DNA from: Myxococcales bacterium
GTDB taxonomy: Bacteria > Myxococcota_A > Polyangia > Polyangiales > Houyiibacteriaceae
Reading direction: 5' to 3'
DNA length: 36,425 nucleotides
Assembly (NCBI GenBank): GCA_020351445.1
Contig: CP070713.1
Location: 845,560 to 881,984 of the forward strand
Within the stretch, counting starts at the first letter, position 1. Each line of letters opens with the position of its first letter. Below are positions 10,485-29,511 of the stretch, one piece after another. A program made the translations under genes and the position numbers. The notes beneath the pieces are model-generated. The model was not told the DNA's origin, made no database searches, and saw only the letters and a list, made by a program, of their open reading frames with translations.

Positions 10485-12643
10485 GATTCGTGTTCGCTCA
10501 CAAGATGGTCGCCTACCTCTTCGCCGGCCTCGGCCTGGTCGCATTGATGCTCGGCACCACCTTCAGTCCCATCGGATCGCTGATCCTCATCGCCGCGTTC
10601 GTCGCGAGTTGGTTCGCGGAGTCACCGCTTCTCGATCGCCCCGGCTACTCTCGGTTCTGGAACATCGCCGCCGTCGTCGTTCTCCTCATTCAAATCGCAC
10701 GCACGATTGGCGGTGAGGCCACGCTGACCGCCGGCGTACAGTACGCTGCCTTTCTTCAAATCTCTCGTCTTTCGCACCGCAAGACGGCCGCGGACTACCA
10801 ACAGATCGCGATTCTCGGCTTCTTGCACCTGATCGCCGGCACCGTGCTCTCCTCTGGGCTCGAGTACGCGGCCGTGTTCTTTGGCTTCGTCATCGTCATG
10901 CCGTGGATGCTCGCGCTCACGCACCTGCGAAAGGAGCTCGAGACGCAGTACGGGGTCGACAGCCCCATGCTTGCCGCCGAGCTCGAAAGCACGACGCTTA
11001 CGACCCCCGCATTTTTCGGCGGTACGACCCTCCTCGCGGTGCCGCTCTTCATCCTGACCGCGGCGATGTTCTTCGCCTTCCCCCGCGTCGGCTTTGGTTT
11101 CTTGTCGAGCTTCGGCGCCCGCACCCAATCGGTGGCCGGCTTCGGCGACGACGTCGAGCTTGGCGGGTTCGGCACGATCCGGGATGACCCCACCGTCGTC
11201 ATGCGCATCAAGCTGAAGAACCGGCCGAATCCCCCGCTGCACTCCATCGGACTACGGCTGCGAGGCACATCGTTCGACCGCTACGGCGAAGGACGCTGGT
11301 CGCGCACCCAGGGTTCCGGCGCGGAAATGAGACGCCTTCAAGACCAGTACATCGTTTTCCGCCCGCCGAAGTCCACGGACCAGGAGTACGAAATCATTCT
11401 CGACCCGATGGAGGAGGCGGTCTTGTTTCTGCCGGAAGGCACCGTGGCGCTGCAGGTGCCGCCCGCGATTCGCTCGGGTCGAAGCCGTTTTCGGCGGATC
11501 GTATACTCGCCGGGGCACGACATCCGCTACCGCGGTCACCTCCAAGCACCTCTCACCTACAAGGCTTTTGCGGCGCGGAAACGCCGCGGGTTTACCGAGC
11601 GCATTCCGAAGCGGCTTCGCGAGCGCTACGTCGAAGTGCCTGAGGGCTACGAGCGCGTCACCGCGTTGGCGCAGGAGGTCGTGCGCGGCCTCTCCCATCC
11701 CCACGCCCAAGCACAACGGGTGGAACGGTACCTCCGCGGAGGGGGCAACTTCCGATACACGCTCGAGCAGCCGGACACCGAGGGCAAAGACCCGCTTCAC
11801 GTCTTCTTGTTCGAAGCCAAGGCAGGGCACTGCGAGTACTTCTCCACCGCGATGGCCATCATGATGCGGTCACTCGGGCTGCCCGCGCGCAACGTCACCG
11901 GCTTCCTCGGCGCCGACTACAACCCGTACGGCGACTACTACGCGGTCCGCAACGGCCATGCGCACAGCTGGGTAGAAGTTCTAATCGACGGCCGCTGGTT
12001 CACCTTCGACCCCACGCCGGCCTCGGGTCAGGTCTTCGCGGCCCCTTCGGGCTTTGCGGTGAAGCTTCGGCAGATCATGGATGCGATGCGTGTGCGCTGG
12101 GCCGAGTACATCGTCGAGTACAACATCCGAGATCAGGCCAAAGCCCTCCAGGGCCTCGCCGCTTGGTACCGATCGCTCCGCGGAAGCCGCGGCCCTGGGC
12201 GCGCAGGCGCGAACAGTGAATCAGGCAACGCACAGGGCTTCGGGCCGATTCCATTCCGCCCCGATTGGCGCTGGTTCGTTGCGATCATGAGCATCTTCGG
12301 CGTCGGCGTCCTGTTTGTTCAATGGAGCCGGAAACGTCGGCGCCAGACCCGCGCAGGCCGGCAACTCGATCCCGACCGAGATCGCGCCGTGCGCCTCTAT
12401 CTATCGCTCGAGAGCAGCCTCCGAAGCACTGGGCACGCGCGCCCCGCCGACGTCACGCCGATCGAGCACGCCGAAGCGCTTGGCCGTTCCGGCTTCGCTG
12501 CGGCAGATGAAGTTCGCGAGGTGACCCACGCGTACCTCGCAGCGCGCTTTGGCGAAGACGGCCTCCCGCCTCAGGACTACCATCGGCTACGACGGGTGAG
12601 CCGCAGCGTTCGAGCGAAAGCAAAGCGGCCGCCTACTGCGTGA
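10481..12643 (+). CDS. TgpA-like membrane transglutaminase (DUF3488 plus transglutaminase core)
   Basis: The 720-residue protein begins with several membrane segments (about residues 10-205, the DUF3488/TgpA region). A periplasmic transglutaminase core follows, with Cys451 in AGHCEYFSTAMA, His495 in HAHSWVEV and Asp510 in TFDPTPASG, all three catalytic positions present. A last membrane segment (about 592-611, DWRWFVAIMSIFGVGVLFVQW) and a cytoplasmic tail with an alpha-helical DUF4129-like part end the protein. TgpA in Pseudomonas aeruginosa is essential and acts at the envelope; the substrate is unknown. It ends 11 bp inside the convergent kinase gene, so the two 3' ends overlap. Confidence 0.92.
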   Translation: MRFVFAHKMVAYLFAGLGLVALMLGTTFSPIGSLILIAAFVASWFAESPLLDRPGYSRFWNIAAVVVLLIQIARTIGGEATLTAGVQYAAFLQISRLSHRKTAADYQQIAILGFLHLIAGTVLSSGLEYAAVFFGFVIVMPWMLALTHLRKELETQYGVDSPMLAAELESTTLTTPAFFGGTTLLAVPLFILTAAMFFAFPRVGFGFLSSFGARTQSVAGFGDDVELGGFGTIRDDPTVVMRIKLKNRPNPPLHSIGLRLRGTSFDRYGEGRWSRTQGSGAEMRRLQDQYIVFRPPKSTDQEYEIILDPMEEAVLFLPEGTVALQVPPAIRSGRSRFRRIVYSPGHDIRYRGHLQAPLTYKAFAARKRRGFTERIPKRLRERYVEVPEGYERVTALAQEVVRGLSHPHAQAQRVERYLRGGGNFRYTLEQPDTEGKDPLHVFLFEAKAGHCEYFSTAMAIMMRSLGLPARNVTGFLGADYNPYGDYYAVRNGHAHSWVEVLIDGRWFTFDPTPASGQVFAAPSGFAVKLRQIMDAMRVRWAEYIVEYNIRDQAKALQGLAAWYRSLRGSRGPGRAGANSESGNAQGFGPIPFRPDWRWFVAIMSIFGVGVLFVQWSRKRRRQTRAGRQLDPDRDRAVRLYLSLESSLRSTGHARPADVTPIEHAEALGRSGFAAADEVREVTHAYLAARFGEDGLPPQDYHRLRRVSRSVRAKAKRPPTA

Positions 12644-14114
12644 GAAACCAGCCTGCTGCAACGCCGGCCGCTGCTAGCACGACGACGCCGAGGATGATGA
12701 GGGCCACCTTCGAACCCCCAGACTTCCGCTCGGGAGGTTTCTCGCTCTTTATTTCCTTCTGTTCCTGCGCCGGCTCACTTTCCGGGTCCGCCAGGATCGA
12801 AATGGGGCTTGCCCCGGGCGGCCGGAACGTCATTACCGGCCGTGAGCCGTCCGGCGCCTGGGAGCGCGAAGGCGGATTCAGCGACGGCCCCATTGGCACG
12901 GCTCCTGGCCGAGGCACCTTGACACTGTCGTCCTTCGACTCGAACCACCCCATCGTTGCGCCGGCCGGCGCGCTGTCGCGTACGTTCTCGATCGCCGTCT
13001 CGACCTCCGCATCTCCGGTAAACCAGTTGCTAGGGTCGACGAAGTCCGATGCATCGAGCGGCCGCGCGCCTTCGTCGGGACTGAGCGCAAACGACGTCGA
13101 CGGGTCGATCGGGACGTTCGCGGTGCTTTCGAGAGACGTGAACCGCGCAAGCTCCTCTTGGATCATCCCGTCGATCATGATCGGCTGCGGCGGCACCGAT
13201 TTCTGGCGATCGAGGGCGGCTTTCACGAGATTCGCGATGTCGTACGAGGTCACCTTCATCTGGTGGTGGAAGAGATAGCTCGCCAGCGCATCGCCGAGCT
13301 CACGCGCGGTTTGAAAGCGCTCGACCGGGTTCTTGGCAAGGGCCCGCTGGACCAGGGCGTCGAATTGCGGGTCGACCTCGGGATGGAGACCGACCAGGGT
13401 CGGGACGTGGGCGTTCGACACGGCCTGGACGGTCTCGTAGTCGGTATCACCGAGGAACAAGCGCCGGCCGGCCAGCATCTCCCAGATGCAGACCCCGAGC
13501 GCGAAGATGTCCGCGCGCTCGTCGACTTCCTGCCCTGTCGCCACCTCCGGCGACAGGTAGCTGAACTTCCCCTTCACCACGCCCGGGTCCGTCCGCTCGA
13601 GCTGCGTCCGCGCCTTGGCCAGCCCGAAGTCGGTGACCTTCACCTCACCTCGTTTGCTGATCAGGATGTTCGGCGGCGACACGTCGCGGTGGACCAGATC
13701 GACCGGGTTCCCGTCCTCGTCGAGAAGCTCGTGCGCGTAGCTCAGTCCACGGCACGCTTCCATCGCAATGTAAATCACGTCTTTGAGCGGAAAGGGATGC
13801 CGCTTGATCCGCAGCGTCTCCATGATCTTCTTGAGGTTCGTCCCGTCGACGAACTCCATGACGATGAAGAAGCTGTTGTCCGACTTCCCAATGTCGAAGA
13901 CGCTGACGATGTTTGCGTGCGTCAACCGCGCGCCGAGCCGCGCCTCGTCGAGAAACATCCCGATGAAATTCGTGTGCGAGGCGAGGTGGGGCAGAACGCG
14001 CTTGATCGCGACGCGTTTCTTGAAGCCTTGGACGCTCGTTGCTTCCCCGAGGAAAACCTCGGCCATCCCCCCGGCTTCAAGTTTTTCGATCAGGTGATAT
14101 CTCTGATCGCTCAT
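12633..14114 (-). CDS. Eukaryote-type Ser/Thr protein kinase with C-terminal membrane anchor
   Basis: The 493-residue protein has a complete N-terminal kinase domain: glycine loop LEAGGMAEV (12-20), Lys38 in VAIKRV, Glu57, catalytic loop HRDVSPPN (142-149, with Ser-Pro where many kinases have Lys-Pro) and DFGLAKA (162-168). A long proline- and acid-rich linker (about 300-465) leads to one membrane segment near the C-terminus ([22 protein letters not shown]) ending three residues later, so no external sensor domain is present. The HRDVSP form is common among myxobacterial kinases. Two FHA-domain proteins encoded in this window are possible phosphothreonine-reading partners (inference). It diverges from rpe. 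Confidence 0.93.
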
Positions 14115-14197: not shown

Positions 14198-14899
14198 ATG
14201 CTGCCCCTGCGGCGCTTGACTGCTGCCGTGCCCAGATCCCCGAAGCCCCTCAGAATCGCCCCCTCCGTTCTTTCGGCTGATTTTGGCCGCCTTGAGGCTG
14301 AAGTCCAGGCAGTCGACCAGGCGGGCGCCGATTGGATCCACGTCGACGTCATGGACGGCCGATTCGTACCCAACATTACCATTGGCCCGCTCGTCGTGAA
14401 GGCCATCAGGGCTGCCACCAAGCACGTGGTCGACGTCCACCTCATGATCGTCGAGCCGGAAAAATATGTTCAGTCGTTCGCCGAGGCGGGCGCAGACGTG
14501 ATTACCGTGCACGCCGAGGCCTCGACGCACCTGCATCGAACGCTTCAGCAGATCCGCGCCCTCGGAAAGCGCGCGGGTGTGTCGTTCAACCCCCATACCC
14601 CTCCCGATTGCCTACGGTACGTCCTGCCCGACGTCGACCTGATCCTCGTCATGAGCGTCAATCCGGGCTTCGGCGGCCAAAGCTTCATCCCTTCGGCCAA
14701 TGCCAAGCTGGCTCAGATTCGCGACATGATCGACGACGCCGGCCTCGACATCGACCTCGAAGTCGACGGTGGCGTCAAGCCCGGCGTGGCACGGCAGGTC
14801 ATCGAAGCGGGCGCCGACGTGATCGTCGCCGGCAGCGCGGTCTTTCGACACGACGACTACGTAACCGCCATCGAGGCGCTCCGAAAGGACGGCGAGTGA
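14198..14899 (+). CDS. rpe: Ribulose-phosphate 3-epimerase
   Basis: The 233-residue TIM-barrel enzyme interconverts ribulose 5-phosphate and xylulose 5-phosphate in the pentose phosphate pathway. Diagnostic motifs are present in order: [46 protein letters not shown] and LEVDGGV. The open frame reaches back to 14039 but would then run into the kinase gene. ATG 14198 or GTG 14228 ([14 protein letters not shown]) are the likely starts; neither has a strong ribosome binding site. Its stop overlaps the GTG start of the FHA activator gene. Confidence 0.94.
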
Positions 14900-16296
14900 A
14901 CGACGATCCGGCGCTCACGACTGTATTCGTCGATCGTAAAGCGACCAAGCGCAAGCTTCGCAAGAGTCGGCTGGTCGTCGAAGAAGGCCCGCAGAAAGGG
15001 ACCCGGCTCGACATTGCCAGCGAGCGCATGACGATCGGCCGGAGCGTCATTTGCGACCTCGCACTGACCGATTCGAGGGTGAGCGGGACGCATTGCGAGA
15101 TCGTCGCCAAGGAGACGGGTTTCCTGCTCCGTGACCTCGGCTCGGCGAACGGTACTTGGGTCGCCGGCGTGCGCGTACGAGAAGCATGGCTCGAACCGGG
15201 CATGCCCTTGAGGCTCGGAGACACGGTGATCCGCTTCGAACACGGTTCCGGCTCGATCGAAATCGACCTCAGCCGGCGCGAACAGTTCTACGACCTCATC
15301 GGGCACGGCGTGCGAATGCGCGAGATTTTCGCGGTGCTCGAGAAGGTGGCGGCTTCGGACCTCACCGTGCTGATTCACGGCGAGACGGGCACAGGCAAGG
15401 AGCTCGTCGCCCGCGCCATTCACCGAGCATCGAAGCGCGCGCAACGCCCCCTGGTCGTCCAGGACTGCAGCGCGATTCCGGCCAACCTCATCGAGAGCAT
15501 CCTGTTTGGCCACGAGCGCGGCTCGTTCACCGGGGCCGCCGACCGCAAGCGCGGCTGCTTCGAGGTGGCCGACGGCGGGACGTTGTTCTTGGACGAGATC
15601 GGCGAGCTCGACATCAGCCTGCAGCCCAAGCTCTTGCGCGTGCTCGAGACGCACGAAGTCCAGCGCGTTGGCGGCACCCGCATGATTCCGGTCGACGTGC
15701 GGGTCATCGCTGCGACAAACCGCGACCTTCGCCAGATGGTCAACGAAGGCACATTTCGCGAAGACCTCTACTATCGGCTGAGCGTCGTCCAGGTCGACTT
15801 GCCGCCACTTCGCGAGCGGCCAGAGGACATCCCCGGGCTTGCTCATCAGTTCCTCGAAGAGTCTGCAAAGCGAGGCCCGCAAGGGGAGGACGCGCACTTC
15901 ACGATTTCGAACGATGCGATGGTCAAGCTTCAGGCGTATCCGTGGCCGGGTAACGTCCGCGAGCTGAAGAATACAATCGAGCGCGCTGTATCGTTGGCCG
16001 ACGGAACCGAGCTCGGAATGCACGACCTTTTGCCCGCCTCGCAAAAGACGCCGCCGATCGTCTTTCCAGGGGGCACTGCCGAGCAGTTCGTCGACAACGA
16101 CATCCCATTCAAAGACGCCAAGCAACGGATCGTCGACGCGTTCGAGGCGCAGTACCTCAAGGCCGTGCTCGACAAGCACGGCGACAACATCAGCCGAAGC
16201 GCTCGGGCCGCGGGCCTCACCCGCTATCACCTCCGCGAGCTCGCCAAACGCTACGGTTTGCGCGGCGAAACCAACGGCCCAGACGACGAAGATTGA
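14896..16296 (+). CDS. FHA-domain sigma-54-dependent transcriptional activator
   Basis: The 466-residue protein has an N-terminal FHA domain (about 40-115; [21 protein letters not shown]), a sigma-54 AAA+ domain with Walker A GETGTGKE (162-169), loop GSFTGA (209-214), Walker [13 protein letters not shown] (227-238) and [10 protein letters not shown], and a Fis-type helix-turn-helix at about 425-455 ([22 protein letters not shown]). Such FHA-type enhancer-binding proteins are abundant in myxobacteria and respond to Ser/Thr kinase signals. The loop has Ser where the sigma-54-contacting motif usually reads GAFTGA. The start GTG 14896 overlaps the rpe stop (GTGA) and follows GAAAGGAC; the long upstream frame through rpe is a shadow. 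Confidence 0.93.
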
Positions 16297-16329: not shown

Positions 16330-17562
16330 ATGGGTGGGATCGCGTTCATGGTGATCGCAGCGGTGGCTTTTGGTTGGCCGCAGTCGGTCGCAGCCGAGAT
16401 CGCCGTCGGGGATACCGCCGCGCCCGCGCCGTCGTGGGCCAAGTCGATCGAGGTGATCGACGATGGCGCCCCCGTGATGCTCGGGCCCAGCGACGAATCA
16501 CGCCGCCGCGGCACCGTCGGCGCCGGCACGCGGCTCGATTTCACGCGCCGGGTGTTCGGTGAAGGCTGCTCGACCCGTGTCTGGTACGAGACCCGTGACG
16601 AGCTCTTCATTTGCGAGGCGCACGTCTCCCCGTCGCCCGAGCCACCGGGACCTCGCGTTGACGACTGGGCCGGAACCGGTTCTCGCTTGCCGCAGCGGTA
16701 CGCGTTCATCCGCTTTGACGGCACCCGCGCCTACGCACACCCGAGCGATTACTTCCGAAACGACTACGTCGAAGCGTTCGGCAAGAGCTTTGGGATCGTC
16801 GTGACAGGGGAGCAAGTGTACGAGGGCGTCGAGTTCATCCGCACGCGCCGGCACCTTTGGGTCGAGCGCGGCTCGGTGCACTTCGTCCAAGGGAGCCCCT
16901 TTTCGGGTGTGAAGCTCGGTCGGAGCAAGCCGCTCGACATCGCGTGGGTATCGCCAAGGCCCGCCAGGGTGCACGAACGTCCGCAGGGACGCGTCGTGAA
17001 GCGTCTCGATCGCCACACCGTCGTGCATGTCGAGGCAACCAAGGGTGCGTGGACAAAGCTCAGCGGGGGAGGGTGGATCAGAACCGCCGAGCTCGCGCCC
17101 GCCAAACGCGCGGAGCCACCGGAAGGCGTCGGCCCAACCGACCGCTGGATCGACATCGACATCGAAAAACAAGTCCTCGTTGCTTACGAGGGTTCGACCC
17201 CGATGTTCGCGACCTTGGTTTCAACCGGTAGGAATACCAAACAATCCAAAACCCCCCTCGGGGTTTTTCAGATCTGGGTCAAGCTCGACTACACCGACAT
17301 GGATGACATCGAGCGCACGGACATCCCCAAAAACTACTCGATTCAAGACGTCCCCTGGGTTCAGTTCTTCAAAGGCTCTTACGGCTTCCACGCGGCGTTC
17401 TGGCACAACGACTTCGGCCGCCGCCGAAGCCACGGCTGCATCAACCTCTCCCCCAAAGATGCCCGCTACCTCTTCCACTTCACCCAACCGATCCTCCCTC
17501 CAGGCTGGAACGCCATCCTCCCCCTCCCCGAAGACCACCCCACCACCGTCCAAATTCGCTAA
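16330..17562 (+). CDS. Secreted L,D-transpeptidase (YkuD family)
   Basis: The 410-residue protein begins with a signal peptide (hydrophobic stretch to about residue 22, cleavage near SVAAE). The middle has SH3-like repeats, including RPARVHERPQGRVVKRLDRHTVVHV at about 216-240. A C-terminal YkuD domain (about 275-400) carries His354 in FHAAFWH and catalytic Cys370 in SHGCINLS. L,D-transpeptidases form 3-3 peptidoglycan crosslinks or attach proteins to peptidoglycan. The stop codon sits at the base of the repeat hairpin at 17561. The Tad locus starts about 110 bp downstream. Confidence 0.92.
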   Translation: MGGIAFMVIAAVAFGWPQSVAAEIAVGDTAAPAPSWAKSIEVIDDGAPVMLGPSDESRRRGTVGAGTRLDFTRRVFGEGCSTRVWYETRDELFICEAHVSPSPEPPGPRVDDWAGTGSRLPQRYAFIRFDGTRAYAHPSDYFRNDYVEAFGKSFGIVVTGEQVYEGVEFIRTRRHLWVERGSVHFVQGSPFSGVKLGRSKPLDIAWVSPRPARVHERPQGRVVKRLDRHTVVHVEATKGAWTKLSGGGWIRTAELAPAKRAEPPEGVGPTDRWIDIDIEKQVLVAYEGSTPMFATLVSTGRNTKQSKTPLGVFQIWVKLDYTDMDDIERTDIPKNYSIQDVPWVQFFKGSYGFHAAFWHNDFGRRRSHGCINLSPKDARYLFHFTQPILPPGWNAILPLPEDHPTTVQIR

Positions 17563-17595
17563 AAGGGGACAGTCCCCTTTTTCAAAGGGTTAATT
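17561..17595. repeat. REP-like palindrome, copy 1 (hairpin plus GGGTTAA tail)
   Basis: The core GGGGACAGTCCCC is flanked by A4 and T5, giving a 10-bp stem around one central base. It is followed by the tail CAAAGGGTTAATT. It begins inside the stop codon of the L,D-transpeptidase gene. A GC stem followed by five T also has the form of an intrinsic terminator. The same unit occurs at 32132, 32174 and 35406. Confidence 0.8.
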
Positions 17596-17673
17596 CATCG
17601 ACGTCGCTGTGGGGCTCGCAGGTGCCCCGCAAACGAGCACGCAACGTCTGCCGTCCGCGGCCGATGAGGAAGC

Positions 17674-17808
17674 GTGGTGTTCGCGGAGTACACGCTGGTG
17701 ACAGGGGTCGTCGTTCTTGCGGCGGGTCTTGCGCTCTACGGGCTCGGCGTCCCCCTGGTCCAGGCTTACTACCTGACGAAACTCTTCATCCTTTTACCTA
17801 TTCCCTGA
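17674..17808 (+). CDS. Small membrane peptide resembling a leaderless Flp pilin
   Basis: A 43- or 44-residue frame starts at GTG 17674 or GTG 17677 after GAGGA (17666-17670) and ends with TGA at 17806. The peptide reads VVFAEYTLVTGVVVLAAG at its start, has one membrane segment of about 25 residues and ends LTKLFILLPIP. The AEYTLVTG stretch resembles VEYIIVLG of the Flp pilin encoded 16 bp downstream. With the 17674 start, Glu is residue 5 and Tyr residue 6, as in a mature Flp pilin, but there is no leader; an in-frame TGA lies at 17665. The spacing to GAGGA is better for 17677. It could be a pilus cofactor, a minor subunit or a leader peptide. No family is recognised with certainty. Confidence 0.55.
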   Translation: MVFAEYTLVTGVVVLAAGLALYGLGVPLVQAYYLTKLFILLPIP

Positions 17809-17815
17809 AAGGAGG
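17808..17815 (+). promoter_or_regulatory. Strong ribosome binding site of the Flp pilin gene
   Basis: AAAGGAGG lies 8 bases before the ATG at 17824 and is the best Shine-Dalgarno match in the Tad region. It fits high expression of a major pilin and fixes the start codon. Confidence 0.7.
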
Positions 17816-17823
17816 GCACACTC

Positions 17824-18009
17824 ATGAACAACGACGAAGAAAGCCACAGCACGCTCGTGCGCGATGAGCGTGGTCTTACGACCGTGGAGTACATCATCGT
17901 CCTCGGTTTGATTGCAGTCGTCGGGATTGCCGCTTGGCAGCAGTTTGGCGAGACCTTGATCGGCGAGGTCGAGGCAGCCGACGGTTACATCGCGGACGTG
18001 GTGCAGTAG
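17824..18009 (+). CDS. flp: Flp/Tad-type IVb pilin
   Basis: The 61-residue prepilin has a hydrophilic leader ending DERG, then LTTVEYIIVLGLIAVVGIAAW. Cleavage after this Gly would put Glu at +5 and Tyr at +6, the signature of Flp pilins. One hydrophobic helix and a short acidic tail follow. It would be matured by the peptidase encoded next and polymerised by the Tad machine. It is the main filament subunit by position and ribosome binding site strength. Confidence 0.93.
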   Translation: MNNDEESHSTLVRDERGLTTVEYIIVLGLIAVVGIAAWQQFGETLIGEVEAADGYIADVVQ

Positions 18010-18020
18010 CAGGCGGTCCG

Positions 18021-18566
18021 ATGAATGCGGCCGCTACCATCGCTGCTGGACTGGCCCTAGGCCTCGCGACGACGGCGGCGCTTTATGACTGGCGACGAGG
18101 CGAGATCCCAAACTGGCTGACCCTTCCGCCTATCGTATTTGCCCCGTTCGCCTACGGGCTCGCCTTTGGCATCGAGTATGCGCTTCACAGTCTTGCGGCC
18201 ACCTTTGTGAGCGCGCTCGTTCCGTACCTTCTGTTTCATCGCGGCGCGCTGGGTGGCGGCGATGTGAAGATATTTGGGGCCCTCGGGGCCATCAACGGGT
18301 TTGATCTTCTGGCCGGAATCGAGATCCAGCTCGCGGCACTCGCGGTGGCTATGGTTGTCGCCTGCAGTGCGCTGGCGTGGAAGGGTGTGTTACTGAGGAC
18401 CCTCGGCAACGCCCTTGCGCTGCCCTTCAACCCGTTGCTTCCGACTCGGTGGCGGCAGGAGCCATGTGAAGCATTGTCCGATCCGATTCGGATGGGCGGG
18501 GCAATCTTCATCGCGACCGGCATCTTCGCCGCTCCTCATCTCGTGCTTGCGTGGGGGGTGCTGTGA
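18021..18566 (+). CDS. tadV: Prepilin peptidase, TadV/CpaA type
   Basis: The 181-residue multi-pass membrane aspartyl protease has Asp23 in YDWRRGEIPNWLT and Asp81 in GGGDVKIFGALG, the two conserved aspartates of the A24 family. It lacks the methylase domain of PilD, as usual for TadV. It should cleave the leaders of the Flp pilin and the two TadE-like proteins. The ATG at 18021 is chosen because the longer frame (to 17934) lies within flp. The stop overlaps the GTG of the following gene (GTGA). Confidence 0.92.
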   Translation: MNAAATIAAGLALGLATTAALYDWRRGEIPNWLTLPPIVFAPFAYGLAFGIEYALHSLAATFVSALVPYLLFHRGALGGGDVKIFGALGAINGFDLLAGIEIQLAALAVAMVVACSALAWKGVLLRTLGNALALPFNPLLPTRWRQEPCEALSDPIRMGGAIFIATGIFAAPHLVLAWGVL

Positions 18567-19354
18567 CGCCGCCGCAGCCAACCGGCCGTCAGCTGTTCGC
18601 AGATCAGCGCGGCGTCGTCTTTCTGGAGTTCCTTATCGCGTTCGTTCCGATGTGGACGTTCTTCCTGTGTGTGGTTCAACTCGCTTTCATCACGCACGCA
18701 AACCTGATGGTGAAGCACGCAGCGGACTCGGCCGCGCGATCTGCTGTAGTCGTGCTGCCGGACGACCCCAACGAATACGGGGGCGAAGCCGAGATGAGCG
18801 TCGACCGCAATCGCGTGACCGCATCCGATATCTCGAGAGCACTCGGGCATGTGGGATCGGCGCTGCGGAGCAACCCGAGCTCCGACATGTTCGTGTCTGC
18901 GCTCTCCGAGGAAACATTGGTCAATCTCGGGAGGTCGCGGCTAAATACAATTCGACTGGCTGCGCACATTCCCTTGATGCCGCTTGCGCCCATGAACGTT
19001 GGTCGCGACTCCCAATTGAGCATTGCCAAGGCCATCGGCGACAAGCGAAAGCTCCTCAGCGCGCTTTACTACCAACCTTTCGCTCTCGCAGTGACCTTCC
19101 CCGGACTCGAAGAGGGCGTCGTAAGCGGCCCTGAAATCACGGTGCGCGTGACCTATGCCTACCAGTGCACGGTGCCGCTCGCACGCAGAATCCTGTGTGA
19201 GGTCTTTGGCGACCTTGAAGCGAAGGAAGAGCTGAGTGAAGCATTCTTTCCTCTTGCGCAGCGCTTCGTTGGCGGCCGTTTTCGAGCCCTGCACCACGAA
19301 ACGACGCTCATGATTCACGACGCGCCCTACGGATATCGAATGCGGGGTTCGTGA
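18563..19354 (+). CDS. TadE-like pseudopilin (first copy)
   Basis: The 263-residue protein begins MTPPQPTGRQLFADQRG, then VVFLEFLIAFVPMWTFFLC. The Gly with Glu at +5 is a prepilin cleavage motif. A single N-terminal membrane helix and a large extracytoplasmic domain with HAADSAARSAVVVLP are typical of TadE-family minor pilins. The GTG at 18563 overlaps the tadV stop and is preferred to the GTG at 18551. Such proteins are thought to sit at the base or tip of the Flp filament. The stop overlaps the next start. Confidence 0.85.
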   Translation: MTPPQPTGRQLFADQRGVVFLEFLIAFVPMWTFFLCVVQLAFITHANLMVKHAADSAARSAVVVLPDDPNEYGGEAEMSVDRNRVTASDISRALGHVGSALRSNPSSDMFVSALSEETLVNLGRSRLNTIRLAAHIPLMPLAPMNVGRDSQLSIAKAIGDKRKLLSALYYQPFALAVTFPGLEEGVVSGPEITVRVTYAYQCTVPLARRILCEVFGDLEAKEELSEAFFPLAQRFVGGRFRALHHETTLMIHDAPYGYRMRGS

Positions 19355-22846: not shown

Positions 22847-23998
22847 GTGTGGGGTTTGAAGAAAACGGCCTCTGTGGCGGGAGTCGCAGTCCTCATGACG
22901 GTGATCGAAGCAAACGGCGGAGCGGACATCGAGGAAGCCCGTCCGATCGTTCTGCGAGTCGGCGAGCAGAAGAGCCTATCGGCCAGGGGAATCCGGAGCT
23001 ACTCGGAGGGAGCGTCCGGGGTCGCGGATATTAGAGTCACGCGGGATCAGAGCCGATTCGTCATCGTCGGCAAGAAAGAGGGCACGACTTCGCTCCTTCT
23101 GATCACAAATGACGGCGGACAGCTGCAACACACGATTCGTGTGATCGCTGCAGGCGCCGATAAAGGGTTTGGAGGTCGGGAGAACATCCGCTTGGACCTG
23201 TACTTCGTGCTCATTCAGGACCGATACAGCCACCAGATCGGACTCAACTGGCCAGGGAATATTGGGAGTACGATCACGCCGTCCGAGGCAGCTATCTCGA
23301 TCACCGGCGGGAGTGGGCAAGCCACTCAGAGCGCGTTTCAGATCTTGCCTCAGACGTTCCTGCCGAGCTTCGATCTCGCCCAGGCCAAAGGTTGGGCGAA
23401 GATGTACCGGCAAGCGACACTGGTCACCGCCAACGGCACCGAAGCGGTGTTCTCGTCGGGCGGGGAGTTCAACGTTCAGGTTCAGAACAATCTGACCGTG
23501 AACGTGCAAGCCATCGAGTTCGGTACGAAGGTAAGTGTTCTTCCAAAGTATGACTCAAAGACCGGACGCATGGAGCTCGAAATCGTAGCGGATGTTTCGG
23601 ACTTGGATGCGGAGAAGGGGATTCAAAGGATCCCAGGTCGCATCACATCACACGTCGAGACGCTCGTGAACCTGGAACTAGGCCAGTCGGTTTCGTTGGC
23701 AGGGATTCGCGCCCGAACCGAGAGGCGAACGAAGAACGGCATTCCCGGACTTGCCCTCATCCCTTTCATTGGAGCGCTCTTCGGGACGCAGTCCCGCGAA
23801 ACCGAAGACAACGAGTCCTACATGTTGGTGGTCCCTTCGGTCGTGGAGCCGATCAGTCTGAGCCAACGGGATCGCGTTGAAGAAGCCATACGCGTATATG
23901 AGAGCTTTCATGGTGGGGTTGATTCCCACGCGCTCATGGATCAACCGCGCGTAGGGCGCGACTCGCTGCCCACGGGCGAACGTGAGCGCGTGCAATGA
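22847..23998 (+). CDS. cpaC: Tad secretin CpaC (RcpA)
   Basis: The 383-residue protein begins with a signal peptide (WGLKKTASVAGVAVLMTVIEANGGA). An N-terminal domain has IVLRVGEQKSLSARGIRSYS and VADIRVTRDQSRFVIVGKKEGTTSLLL. The secretin core ends with IPGLALIPFIGALFGTQ and ESYMLVVPSVVEP. These are typical of CpaC/RcpA outer-membrane secretins, which form the exit pore for the Flp filament. GTG 22847 lies one base after the cpaB stop; TTG 22856 (MKKTASVAG) is an alternative. The stop overlaps the ATG of the next gene (ATGA). Confidence 0.9.
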   Translation: MWGLKKTASVAGVAVLMTVIEANGGADIEEARPIVLRVGEQKSLSARGIRSYSEGASGVADIRVTRDQSRFVIVGKKEGTTSLLLITNDGGQLQHTIRVIAAGADKGFGGRENIRLDLYFVLIQDRYSHQIGLNWPGNIGSTITPSEAAISITGGSGQATQSAFQILPQTFLPSFDLAQAKGWAKMYRQATLVTANGTEAVFSSGGEFNVQVQNNLTVNVQAIEFGTKVSVLPKYDSKTGRMELEIVADVSDLDAEKGIQRIPGRITSHVETLVNLELGQSVSLAGIRARTERRTKNGIPGLALIPFIGALFGTQSRETEDNESYMLVVPSVVEPISLSQRDRVEEAIRVYESFHGGVDSHALMDQPRVGRDSLPTGERERVQ

Positions 23999-25575
23999 CA
24001 GCTGGCTTCGCAGTATCCGTGCTCATGCCAGACGGTTCGGAGCACAACATCAATGTTCCGAACACGGGCTCTCTGACAGTAGGCCGTGACCCCACCTGTC
24101 ACATCGTCCTGCCATCGCCCTCGGTCAGCCGAATCCACCTCCGGGTCGAGCGGAGTCCAGACGGAGTGCGGGTCATGGACCAGTCTTCCAACGGCACCAC
24201 CTTTGGTAACGAACCTCTGTCGGCTTTCGGAAGGGAACTGACGTCCGAGGCGCTTCATGTGGGGCCCTATGTCCTCAAGATTGCGCTGCTCGCTGATGCT
24301 GGTTTCGAGAGCGGCGCGTCGGCCGAGTTGAGGCGGCGAATTCACCGGTCGCTTCTCGATCACCTCGACCTCGCTTCTCTCGATGGCAGCGAAATGGATG
24401 CGCCACTCCTGCGGCCACGAGTAGTCAAGGCGCTCGAGCAGATCCTTTCGAGGTTCGAATCCGAGCTCTGCCCCCGGACCGATCGAGCGAAACTCGTTGC
24501 GGAGATGGCCGACGAGGCGCTCGGTCTTGGGCCGCTGCAGGAGCTTCTCGACGACGACGCGGTTTCCGAGATCATGGTCGTTGACCCGAACACGATCTAC
24601 GTCGAAAGGCAGGGCAAGCTCCGCCTGACGCCTTTGCGGTTCACCGATGACGAATCGTGTCGCGCCGCGATCGAACGGATCGTGACTCCGCTAGGGAGGC
24701 GCATCGACGAAAGCACACCACTGGTCGACGCACGATTGAAAGACGGTTCACGCGTCAACGCTATCATCCCGCCACTCGCACTGCGCGGGCCTTGCATCAC
24801 GATTCGCAAGTTTGCGCAACACCCGCTTCACATGGATCAGCTAGTCGCGTTGGGAAGCCTAAGCGATCAGATGGCGAGGTTCTTGAAGCGCTGCGTACGC
24901 GCCAAGAAGAACATAATCATTTCGGGAGGCACCGGTAGCGGTAAGACCACCTTGCTGAACGTTCTGTCTGCTGAAATCCCACCGGAAGAACGGATCGTCA
25001 CGATCGAAGACGCCGCGGAGTTGCGGCTGGAACAACCACACGTCGTCTCGCTCGAATCGAAGCCGCGCAACCTCGAGGGCGCCGGTGGCTACAGCATTCG
25101 CGACCTCGTGAAGAACGCGCTGCGGATGCGCCCAGACAGAATCATCGTCGGAGAGTGCAGAGGTGGGGAGGCGATCGACATGTTGCAGGCGATGAACACT
25201 GGCCACGAGGGTTCCATGACGACGGCTCACGCAAACAGTGCCGGTGAAGCACTCAAGCGTGTCGAGACTCTTTGTATGATGGCGGGCCTAGACCTGTCAC
25301 ATAGAACTGTCCGCGAACAGATCTCCGGAAGCGTTCACATAGTCATTCAGCAGACTCGATTCTCTGACGGGGCTCGTCGCCTGACGTCCGTCACCGAAGT
25401 CGGCCAGTTGGGCGAGGACGGTGAGCTCATCCTCCATGACATTTTCGCCTTCCATCGCACCGGCACGAACTCCTCAGGCGAGGTGTTGGGGCAGCATCGG
25501 ACGACGGGCTACGTGCCAAGCTTCCTCGACGAGTTCATCACGCAGGGGCTGATCGACGGCGGGGAGTACTTGTGA
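23995..25575 (+). CDS. cpaF: Tad motor ATPase CpaF/TadA with N-terminal FHA domain
   Basis: The 526-residue protein fuses an FHA domain (about 25-80: [32 protein letters not shown]) to a CpaF/TadA ATPase. Walker A GGTGSGKT lies at 311-318, then [32 protein letters not shown] and [15 protein letters not shown]. The motor powers Flp assembly, and possibly retraction, at the inner membrane. The FHA domain should bind a phosphothreonine protein, linking the machine to a Ser/Thr kinase such as the one at 12633-14114 (inference). It overlaps cpaC upstream and tadB downstream by 4 bp each. Confidence 0.94.
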
Positions 25576-27891: not shown

Positions 27892-28522
27892 TCAAGGGCT
27901 CGGCCTTCGGCTCTCGTGCTGCTTCACAATTCTGTTTGGATGTAACTACGCGGCACTTCACCAGGGAACCGACCTCCAAGCTCAACTGGCGTCGATCACC
28001 CCAGAAGACCTGTTTTCGTTGGCGGTTTCCCACGCACGCTCAGGCGACCTTCTTCGCGCGGAGCAGTATTTGAGCGCTGCACGACAGCGGGGTCATGATG
28101 AATCCGAGGTGGTCTATTGGCTGGTGCGTGTCTGTGTCGCCTCTAGTCGCTACCAGTCCGCTTTGGCTCACGCCACCGACTACCTTCGCGATCATCCCTC
28201 GGATTGGTCCCTTCGCCTTGTCGTTGCGACCATCTACGAGGCTCTCGGAGACGTCGCCCGTGCGCAATCGGAGCTCGAGCGCATTGTGACGGCGGAGCCC
28301 AGAAGGCCGTTGCCTCACTATCGGTTGGCGATGCTCTACCGAAAGCAGGCAGCCGGCCAAGAGCAGGCGACGGCACACCTGGAGGAGTACCTCCAGCTCA
28401 CGCCGGACGGGCCTCACGCTGCAGAGGTAAGGTCCGCCCTGAGTGAGGTTACCGAAACCTCAACAGGCCCCCGACTCATTCCATACCCAAGGACCATCGT
28501 TTCGGGGAAAGAGGCACCGTGA
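27830..28522 (+). CDS. tadD: TadD-like TPR lipoprotein
   Basis: The 230-residue protein has a possible lipobox (ILFG before Cys at about residue 38), preceded by a long N-terminal stretch. It then has TPR-type helical repeats (DLFSLAVSHARSGDLLRAEQYL; YQSALAHATDYLRDHPSDW; GDVARAQSELERIVTAEPRRPLPHYRLAMLY). TadD proteins are outer-membrane pilotins or assembly factors for the secretin. ATG 27830 follows CGGGAGAC. The region before the lipobox is longer than usual, so the start could be later, though no other good start is seen. The stop overlaps the next GTG. Confidence 0.8.
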   Translation: MSTGSKESSEESPLGQARLRSQGLGLRLSCCFTILFGCNYAALHQGTDLQAQLASITPEDLFSLAVSHARSGDLLRAEQYLSAARQRGHDESEVVYWLVRVCVASSRYQSALAHATDYLRDHPSDWSLRLVVATIYEALGDVARAQSELERIVTAEPRRPLPHYRLAMLYRKQAAGQEQATAHLEEYLQLTPDGPHAAEVRSALSEVTETSTGPRLIPYPRTIVSGKEAP

Positions 28523-29511
28523 GCATCCCCCGCCGCGTATTCGAGCAGACGGTTGGCTCGCTCTTCGCTCCGGTCATTCCGTTCTTGGAGGGAGACGAGG
28601 TGAGCGAAATCATGATCAACCGCTACGATGAGATATACGTTGAGAGAGACGGGCGACTCTATCTAACAGGGAGTAGGTTTGCATCGGAGCACGACTTGAT
28701 GTCCGCGCTCCGCAACCTTTCCCAATTCGTGGGTCGGGAGCTCAACCCACGGCAGCCGATCTTGGAGGCTCGGCTGCCCGACGGTTCGCGTGTGGAAGCG
28801 ATCATCCCGCCTGCGTCGCCGGCGGGTCCCGTCGTGTGCATCAGGCGCTTTCAGCAAACGCAGTTGACGCTGATTCGGCTCGTCGAGCAGGGGGCGATCT
28901 CGCCTGGCACCGCAGGTCTTCTTCGGGCGGCCATCGCCAGAAAGGACAATGTGATCGTTGCCGGCGGAAGCGGCTCCGGCAAGACATCCCTTCTGAACGC
29001 CCTAGCGTCGCTGGCTCCTGACGAGGAGCGCATCGTAGTTATCGAGGATTCTCAGGAGCTGCAAGTCGGACTCCCCCACGTCGTTCAGCTCGAGGCACAG
29101 CCAGTAGACGGGCGGGGTCGTGGTGGGGTCGCCATTCGCGAGCTTTTCAGAGCGACCCTTCGTATGCGTCCCGATAGAATCGTGATCGGCGAGGTACGCG
29201 GAGGCGAAGCGCTAGATCTGATCCAAGCGATGACATCAGGGCACCGCGGCTGCCTGTCGACTATTCACGCGACGCTCCCTATCGACACATTGAGTCGGTT
29301 GGAGACCATGGCGCTCATGAGTGATGTCGACGTGCCCTTGGATGTGCTCCGGGTACAGATCGCTTCGGCCGTCGACACCGTCGTTCAGGTTGCGCGGCGT
29401 TGTGACGGACGGCGCTACGTAACGCACGTCAGCGAAGTGGTTGGCTATGCGCGAGAGAAGGGCTACCAAATCAGGAATCTATTTGAGCGACTCGGAGGGG
29501 ATGGCGAATGA
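28519..29511 (+). CDS. Second CpaF/TadA-type secretion ATPase, without FHA domain
   Basis: The 330-residue protein is a complete, short CpaF-type ATPase: ISEIMINRYDEIYVERDGRL-like start (read EVSEIMINRYDEIYVERDG at about 27-45), Walker A GGSGSGKT (149-156), EDSQELQV, RMRPDRIVIGEVRGGEALDLIQAM and GCLSTIHATLPIDTL. All catalytic motifs look intact. It lacks the N-terminal domain of the first CpaF. GTG 28519 overlaps the tadD stop. Two CpaF motors in one Tad locus are unusual; it may serve filament retraction or a hetero-hexamer (inference). Confidence 0.9.
   Translation: MSIPRRVFEQTVGSLFAPVIPFLEGDEVSEIMINRYDEIYVERDGRLYLTGSRFASEHDLMSALRNLSQFVGRELNPRQPILEARLPDGSRVEAIIPPASPAGPVVCIRRFQQTQLTLIRLVEQGAISPGTAGLLRAAIARKDNVIVAGGSGSGKTSLLNALASLAPDEERIVVIEDSQELQVGLPHVVQLEAQPVDGRGRGGVAIRELFRATLRMRPDRIVIGEVRGGEALDLIQAMTSGHRGCLSTIHATLPIDTLSRLETMALMSDVDVPLDVLRVQIASAVDTVVQVARRCDGRRYVTHVSEVVGYAREKGYQIRNLFERLGGDGE

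Follow-up and report, generated by a model that had tools for sequence, protein, structure and literature searches.

Processing by a prepilin peptidase is treated as a defining property of type IV pilins (PMC10191384, PMC12075869). In the Flp/Tad (type IVc) systems, the major pilins, such as Flp1, Caulobacter PilA and Myxococcus KilP, are helices of about 44-45 residues when mature and carry Glu5 and Tyr6; in the Caulobacter Tad pilin, with a mature length of 45 residues, these two residues form the core hydrogen-bond network (PMC11067988). Tad loci also encode minor pilins, among them the TadE/TadF pseudopilins and, in the Kil pilus of Myxococcus (Myxococcota), KilK and KilO, small all-helical Flp-like proteins that accompany the major Flp and act as tip adapters needed to prime the pilus (PMC12075869). 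KilK and KilO carry leaders with a cleavage motif, and no report of a natural leaderless pilin was found in the literature covered by one library.

Here, we describe a Tad locus in a 36,425-nucleotide stretch of a Myxococcales bacterium genome (the window), in which a peptide resembling a mature Flp pilin is encoded without a leader directly upstream of flp. In GTDB terms, the genus, of class Polyangia, is probably SG8-38, because its named members, all of them metagenome assemblies, include Myxococcales bacterium SG8_38. The features of the locus are as follows.

16330-17562: YkuD-domain gene
17561-17581, no strand assigned: palindrome AAAAGGGG-ACAGT-CCCCTTTT, behind the YkuD-domain gene
17639-17645, forward strand: -35-like box ACGCAAC, at -35 to -29 from the start codon
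17661-17667, forward strand: -10-like box CCGATGA, at -13 to -7, including the stop TGA 17665-17667
17674-17808, forward strand: candidate leaderless Flp-like pilin gene, 44 codons plus TGA, its start codon being mature residue +1
17810-17815, forward strand: Shine-Dalgarno sequence AGGAGG of flp
17824-18009, forward strand: flp, major Tad prepilin, aligned with a normal leader MNNDEESHSTLVRDERG before LTTVEY
18021-18566, forward strand: tadV, prepilin peptidase, apparently intact (Pfam Peptidase_A24, E 3e-15)
18551-19354, forward strand: TadE-like pseudopilin (Pfam TadE, E 2.4e-5)

The reading frame extends from GTG 17674 to TGA 17806-17808 (product VVFAEYTLVTGVVVLAAGLALYGLGVPLVQAYYLTKLFILLPIP) between the YkuD-domain gene and flp, which begins 15 nt after it at 17824. 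Its genomic context is that of a Tad system, with flp, tadV, tadE, rcpC, a secretin gene, an FHA-containing tadA, tadB, tadC and a TPR gene. The flp product matches Pfam Flp_Fap at E 8.5e-6, below the gathering cut-off of that model; TadV contains the motifs D.R..IPN and GGGDVK, and the leader of the TadE-like protein ends in ADQRG before VVFLEF. Further along the locus, after the TPR protein, lies a second type II/IV secretion ATPase gene (28519-29511). The TadA ATPase is fused to an FHA domain and stands near a sigma-54 activator with an FHA domain and a Ser/Thr kinase encoded on the opposite strand (23995-25572, 14332-16296, 12633-14114), an arrangement in which phospho-control of the pilus is possible. 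The palindrome, which the first-pass annotation had called a repeat, is possibly a terminator or a REP-type repeat; the terminator scan scored no intrinsic terminator at 17561, the T run lying inside the stem, and a similar palindrome occupies the same place behind the YkuD gene in G008. Elsewhere, contig C146 of G024 (L027) carries two tadV-like matches about 0.5 kb apart.

The same 44-residue frame was found by tblastn in 13 more genomes of the genus, at 74-95% identity, and is thus present in all 14 congeneric genomes in which the locus is intact. Every copy has exactly 44 codons, ends in TGA and is followed by flp-tadV. Over the 91 pairs that these genomes form, mean dN was 0.106 and mean dS 0.786, and most differences, largely synonymous, fall at third codon positions. 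The ORF is a real gene under purifying selection, far beyond chance, and this selection rules out a spurious ORF. The genus genomes without the gene either have no tadV match (G009, G016 and G018) or have only a partial one at a contig end (G002 and G012). An ORF of 43-44 residues upstream of flp had been reported in the first-pass annotation and is present as described; the same frame precedes flp-tadV throughout the related loci, dN and dS differ as given above, and a missing or broken frame in close relatives was looked for and not encountered.

Codon 1, which corresponds to mature residue +1, is GTG in ten and ATG in four of the 14 genomes, and codon 2 is GTG, GTC or GTT. Translation therefore starts at 17674 rather than at GTG 17677, a start rejected because G003, G010 and G014 have GTC or GTT there. 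The resulting N terminus is M1-V2-F3-A4-E5-Y6, so that the earlier placement of Glu and Tyr at residues 5 and 6, made on the supposition of a start at 17674, holds with a start codon conserved in 14 of 14 genomes. A leader in another frame, MRKRG from ATG 17664, was also rejected, this ATG belonging to the CCGATGA box and being gone in the genomes that read CCGATAA.

None of the 14 genomes contains a class III signal (a hydrophilic leader ending in Gly or Ala) before the gene. In the window, an in-frame TGA (17665-17667) stands three codons 5' of GTG 17674, and an immediate in-frame stop, TGA or TAA, occurs in ten of the 13 genomes with upstream sequence. It is missing in three congeners, of which G001 and G011 have no NTG start at least five codons upstream of the peptide start, and G006 has an upstream NTG followed by nothing leader-like. 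The first-pass annotation had argued that the stop excludes a leader: the leaderless state stands, and the stop as a universal bar does not. Six genomes still have a glycine codon directly before the start, which may be a remnant or a matter of base composition. In G001 (L041), no stop interrupts the 24 codons upstream of the start; this stretch, which overlaps the promoter-like boxes, translates as ...SPADDRGVSVVFAEY and is possibly a relic of the lost leader.

A peptide search followed by a profile search identified homologues in many genera of Polyangia, and no match outside this class at E 0.001 in a phylum-wide sample. To establish leader state, we examined the sequence surrounding 116 homologous loci from outside the genus: the codon at -1 specifies Gly in 113 and Ala in two, and the one remaining locus is the leaderless G042 (L059). 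The leaders end in ...LLEDTSG, ...LHDDESG, ...LRDTRG and similar sequences. Leadered homologues (for example, L056, L057, L061 and L118) have the same 44-residue mature core as the peptide and, like its gene, usually lie just upstream of flp-tadV; they differ in their leaders, mostly of about 7 to 30 residues and ending in Gly, occasionally Ala. In alignments, leadered and leaderless members form a gapless mature block of 44 columns with E5, Y6, G25, P27, P42 and P44 invariant, and members end in P-x-P and usually sit beside flp-tadV. Loci L046-L121 and L167-L206 show this C-terminal tail as P-[IFVL]-P, often with G-x-P in mid-helix. This Flp-like family of Polyangia, of which a genome has one to three members at E 0.001, is uncatalogued and has no Pfam model; the peptide itself has no significant Pfam or NCBIfam match, and the warning that annotation easily misses such genes was justified.

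Because homologues elsewhere in Polyangia carry leaders, the genus peptide lost its leader secondarily; it did not arise independently as a micropeptide. At the level of sequence, the loss itself is demonstrated, as are the reality of the gene, the selection on it, its homology to leadered pilins and the conservation of the boxes. In the TadV tree, the genus sequences group as a single clade (support 100/100), and one loss at the base of the genus is therefore enough. Moreover, since leadered L057 reads ...S-G-V-V-F-V-E-Y with GTG at +1, the simplest history is one in which the valine codon at +1 was turned into the start codon. G042, in which the order is flp, leaderless gene, tadV, begins ATG-TCC-TTC-GAG-TAC (MSFEY...), with no alternative start and a stop codon ten codons upstream; this is an independent leader loss in another family, seen in one assembly. 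L192 (G041) likewise has no upstream start, but lies at a contig end with a partial match only.

The Flp-like N terminus in mature register, as the first reading had it, is recovered by profile comparison: hhalign places residue 1 of the family profile on mature +1 of the major Flp (92%, E 5e-7). Among solved structures, the only match, a weak one, is Caulobacter PilA (PDB 8u1k; residues 4-33 on 4-33, E 0.91), and AlphaFold2 predicts a single helix over residues 2-40 (mean pLDDT 94). The peptide has in common with the Flp/Tad major pilins its helix length, Glu5-Tyr6, the register and the tad locus; unlike them, it has no leader and no TadV site and goes unrecognised by Pfam Flp_Fap, which matches none of 28 mature family members at E<=1 and two of six leadered members weakly (E 0.015-0.044). 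Neither the P-x-P tail nor G25-x-P27 characterises the major Flp in our alignment. The mature end of the window's TadE, VVFLEF, resembles VVFAEY of the peptide, but TadE is far longer and leadered, and the peptide has no TadE match. KilK and KilO, likened by description, are likely its functional parallel, differing in the leader and cleavage motif that the peptide lacks. Without a class III leader, the peptide falls outside the classical prepilins, and it likely works like a Tad pilin.

The in-frame stop of the window, noted in the first reading, turns out to belong to a -10-like box that had gone unseen, and in ten of 13 genomes the stop is part of this box. Position-by-position conservation revealed two conserved islands upstream of the start in otherwise weakly conserved DNA. 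They form the pair ACGCAAC-N15-CCGATRA, which ends 6 nt before the peptide start in 13 of 13 genomes: CAAC is identical in all 13 at a fixed distance, CCGA occurs in all 13 and CCGATRA in most, and the sequence upstream of the -35-like box is unconserved. Leave-one-out scores of the 13 sites ranged from 17.9 to 35.9, compared with 14.5 for the best of 580 shuffles. The order and spacing of the boxes are those of a bacterial promoter, making this a putative promoter by motif alone. The AAC of the -35-like box presumably recalls ECF-type sigma factors, and a scan found no sigma-70 promoter. Given promoter-like boxes at these distances, transcription probably begins at the start codon or no more than one nucleotide away from it, so that no leader could be translated from the mRNA. 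Agreeing with such a start, no Shine-Dalgarno match of four or more nucleotides precedes the peptide in nine of 13 genomes; a Shine-Dalgarno-like motif precedes flp in all 14.

In G291 (score 26.5), G213 (25.4) and G230 (17.3), leadered homologues have similar boxes 7 nt ahead of their start, the placement in the latter two implying unusually long leaders of 69 and 47 codons, and weaker cases occur in G169 and G178. The leaderless-mRNA arrangement may therefore predate the loss of the leader from the protein. Across the genome, the motif has 12 exact sites, four of which, including this locus, have an NTG 6-7 nt downstream; these are too few to support a claim of a genome-wide regulon. The other three (L127, L130 and L131) precede open frames of 78 codons at L127 and 256 at L131, and a short one at L130. 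The form CGCAAC-N15-CCGATNA lies 6-7 nt before start codons in the window (17639-17667) and at L118, L092, L170, L090 and L120, a placement suggesting that these bacteria have a class of leaderless transcripts.

In our view, the gene probably encodes a minor pilin of the Flp type (Tad, type IVc) that is made in its mature form and joins the filament without TadV cleavage. In the ancestor of genus SG8-38, a second Flp-like pilin, which other Polyangia still make with a leader, would have lost this leader when the mature +1 codon (Val GTG, or ATG) was taken over as the start codon, exactly at the former cleavage point. The promoter would now cover the former leader-coding DNA, and with an mRNA starting at or within one nucleotide of the start codon, no leader would be translated. 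The peptide, a single hydrophobic helix that keeps Glu5-Tyr6 in pilin register, would go into the inner membrane and join the Tad filament with no need for TadV, on which Flp and TadE would still depend. Its most likely place there is near the tip, as an adapter or initiator present in low copy number. A place near the tip as a minor Tad pilin is probable because leaderless members keep Glu5 and Tyr6 of the Caulobacter core, and the peptide could plausibly serve as an initiator from the outset, before TadV has cut Flp; initiator was one of the three roles, beside cap and inhibitor, that the first reading had put forward. We infer the transcription start, membrane orientation, N-terminal state, incorporation and tip role of the peptide. 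Against an N-in orientation, there are no N-terminal positive charges, the only basic residue being K36 near the C terminus; with the positive charges of the leader gone, the N-in orientation that pilins need is therefore not assured. Met1 of the peptide may be kept, or it may be removed by methionine aminopeptidase, which can trim Met-Val ends; removal would put Glu at position 4, where G042 has it before any trimming. As to the broader claim, we lean slightly towards a natural type IV subunit that bypasses the prepilin peptidase, translated in mature form from an mRNA starting at +1, with the leader loss fixed throughout the genus and repeated at least once elsewhere.

The missing charges could also be read differently, since a peptide deprived of the residues that set pilin orientation might no longer be a filament subunit and might instead act on Flp assembly from within the membrane, as a regulator, chaperone or inhibitor that occupies, for instance, the TadB/TadC platform or TadV. 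Its gene is the first of the operon and adjoins the supposed target, and by the accepted rule minor pilins work only when processed (PMC12075869). However, leaderless members keep E5, Y6, G25, P27, P42 and P44 of the leadered pattern and match its mature length exactly, which is what unchanged assembly contacts would predict, and we regard a regulator as unlikely, while giving it some weight. Still made leaders, arising by an upstream non-NTG start, stop readthrough or frameshift, are very improbable: the open frame of G001 is leader-like, though two codons out of register, but ten of the 13 genomes with upstream sequence have the in-frame stop and the region is occupied by two promoter-like boxes at fixed spacing.

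Selection at the amino-acid level and the homology to leadered pilins likewise speak against a regulatory upstream ORF whose translation, rather than product, controls flp; the short ORF, ending 15 nt before flp and probably with a leaderless start, has the appearance of one, and we rate this slightly lower again. The absent leader might finally mark a decaying pseudogene of a second flp, an idea contradicted by purifying selection, intact frames in 14 of 14 genomes and fixed length, and scarcely credible.

If a conserved subunit without a leader is a real pilin, then processing can be bypassed. This would separate the jobs of the leader, namely targeting and orientation on the one hand and holding assembly back until cleavage on the other. 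Polyangia, in which related bacteria make one protein with or without a leader, offer a natural experiment in which the very need of pilins for processing can be tested, and the finding also defines an uncatalogued family of small pilins that annotation misses.
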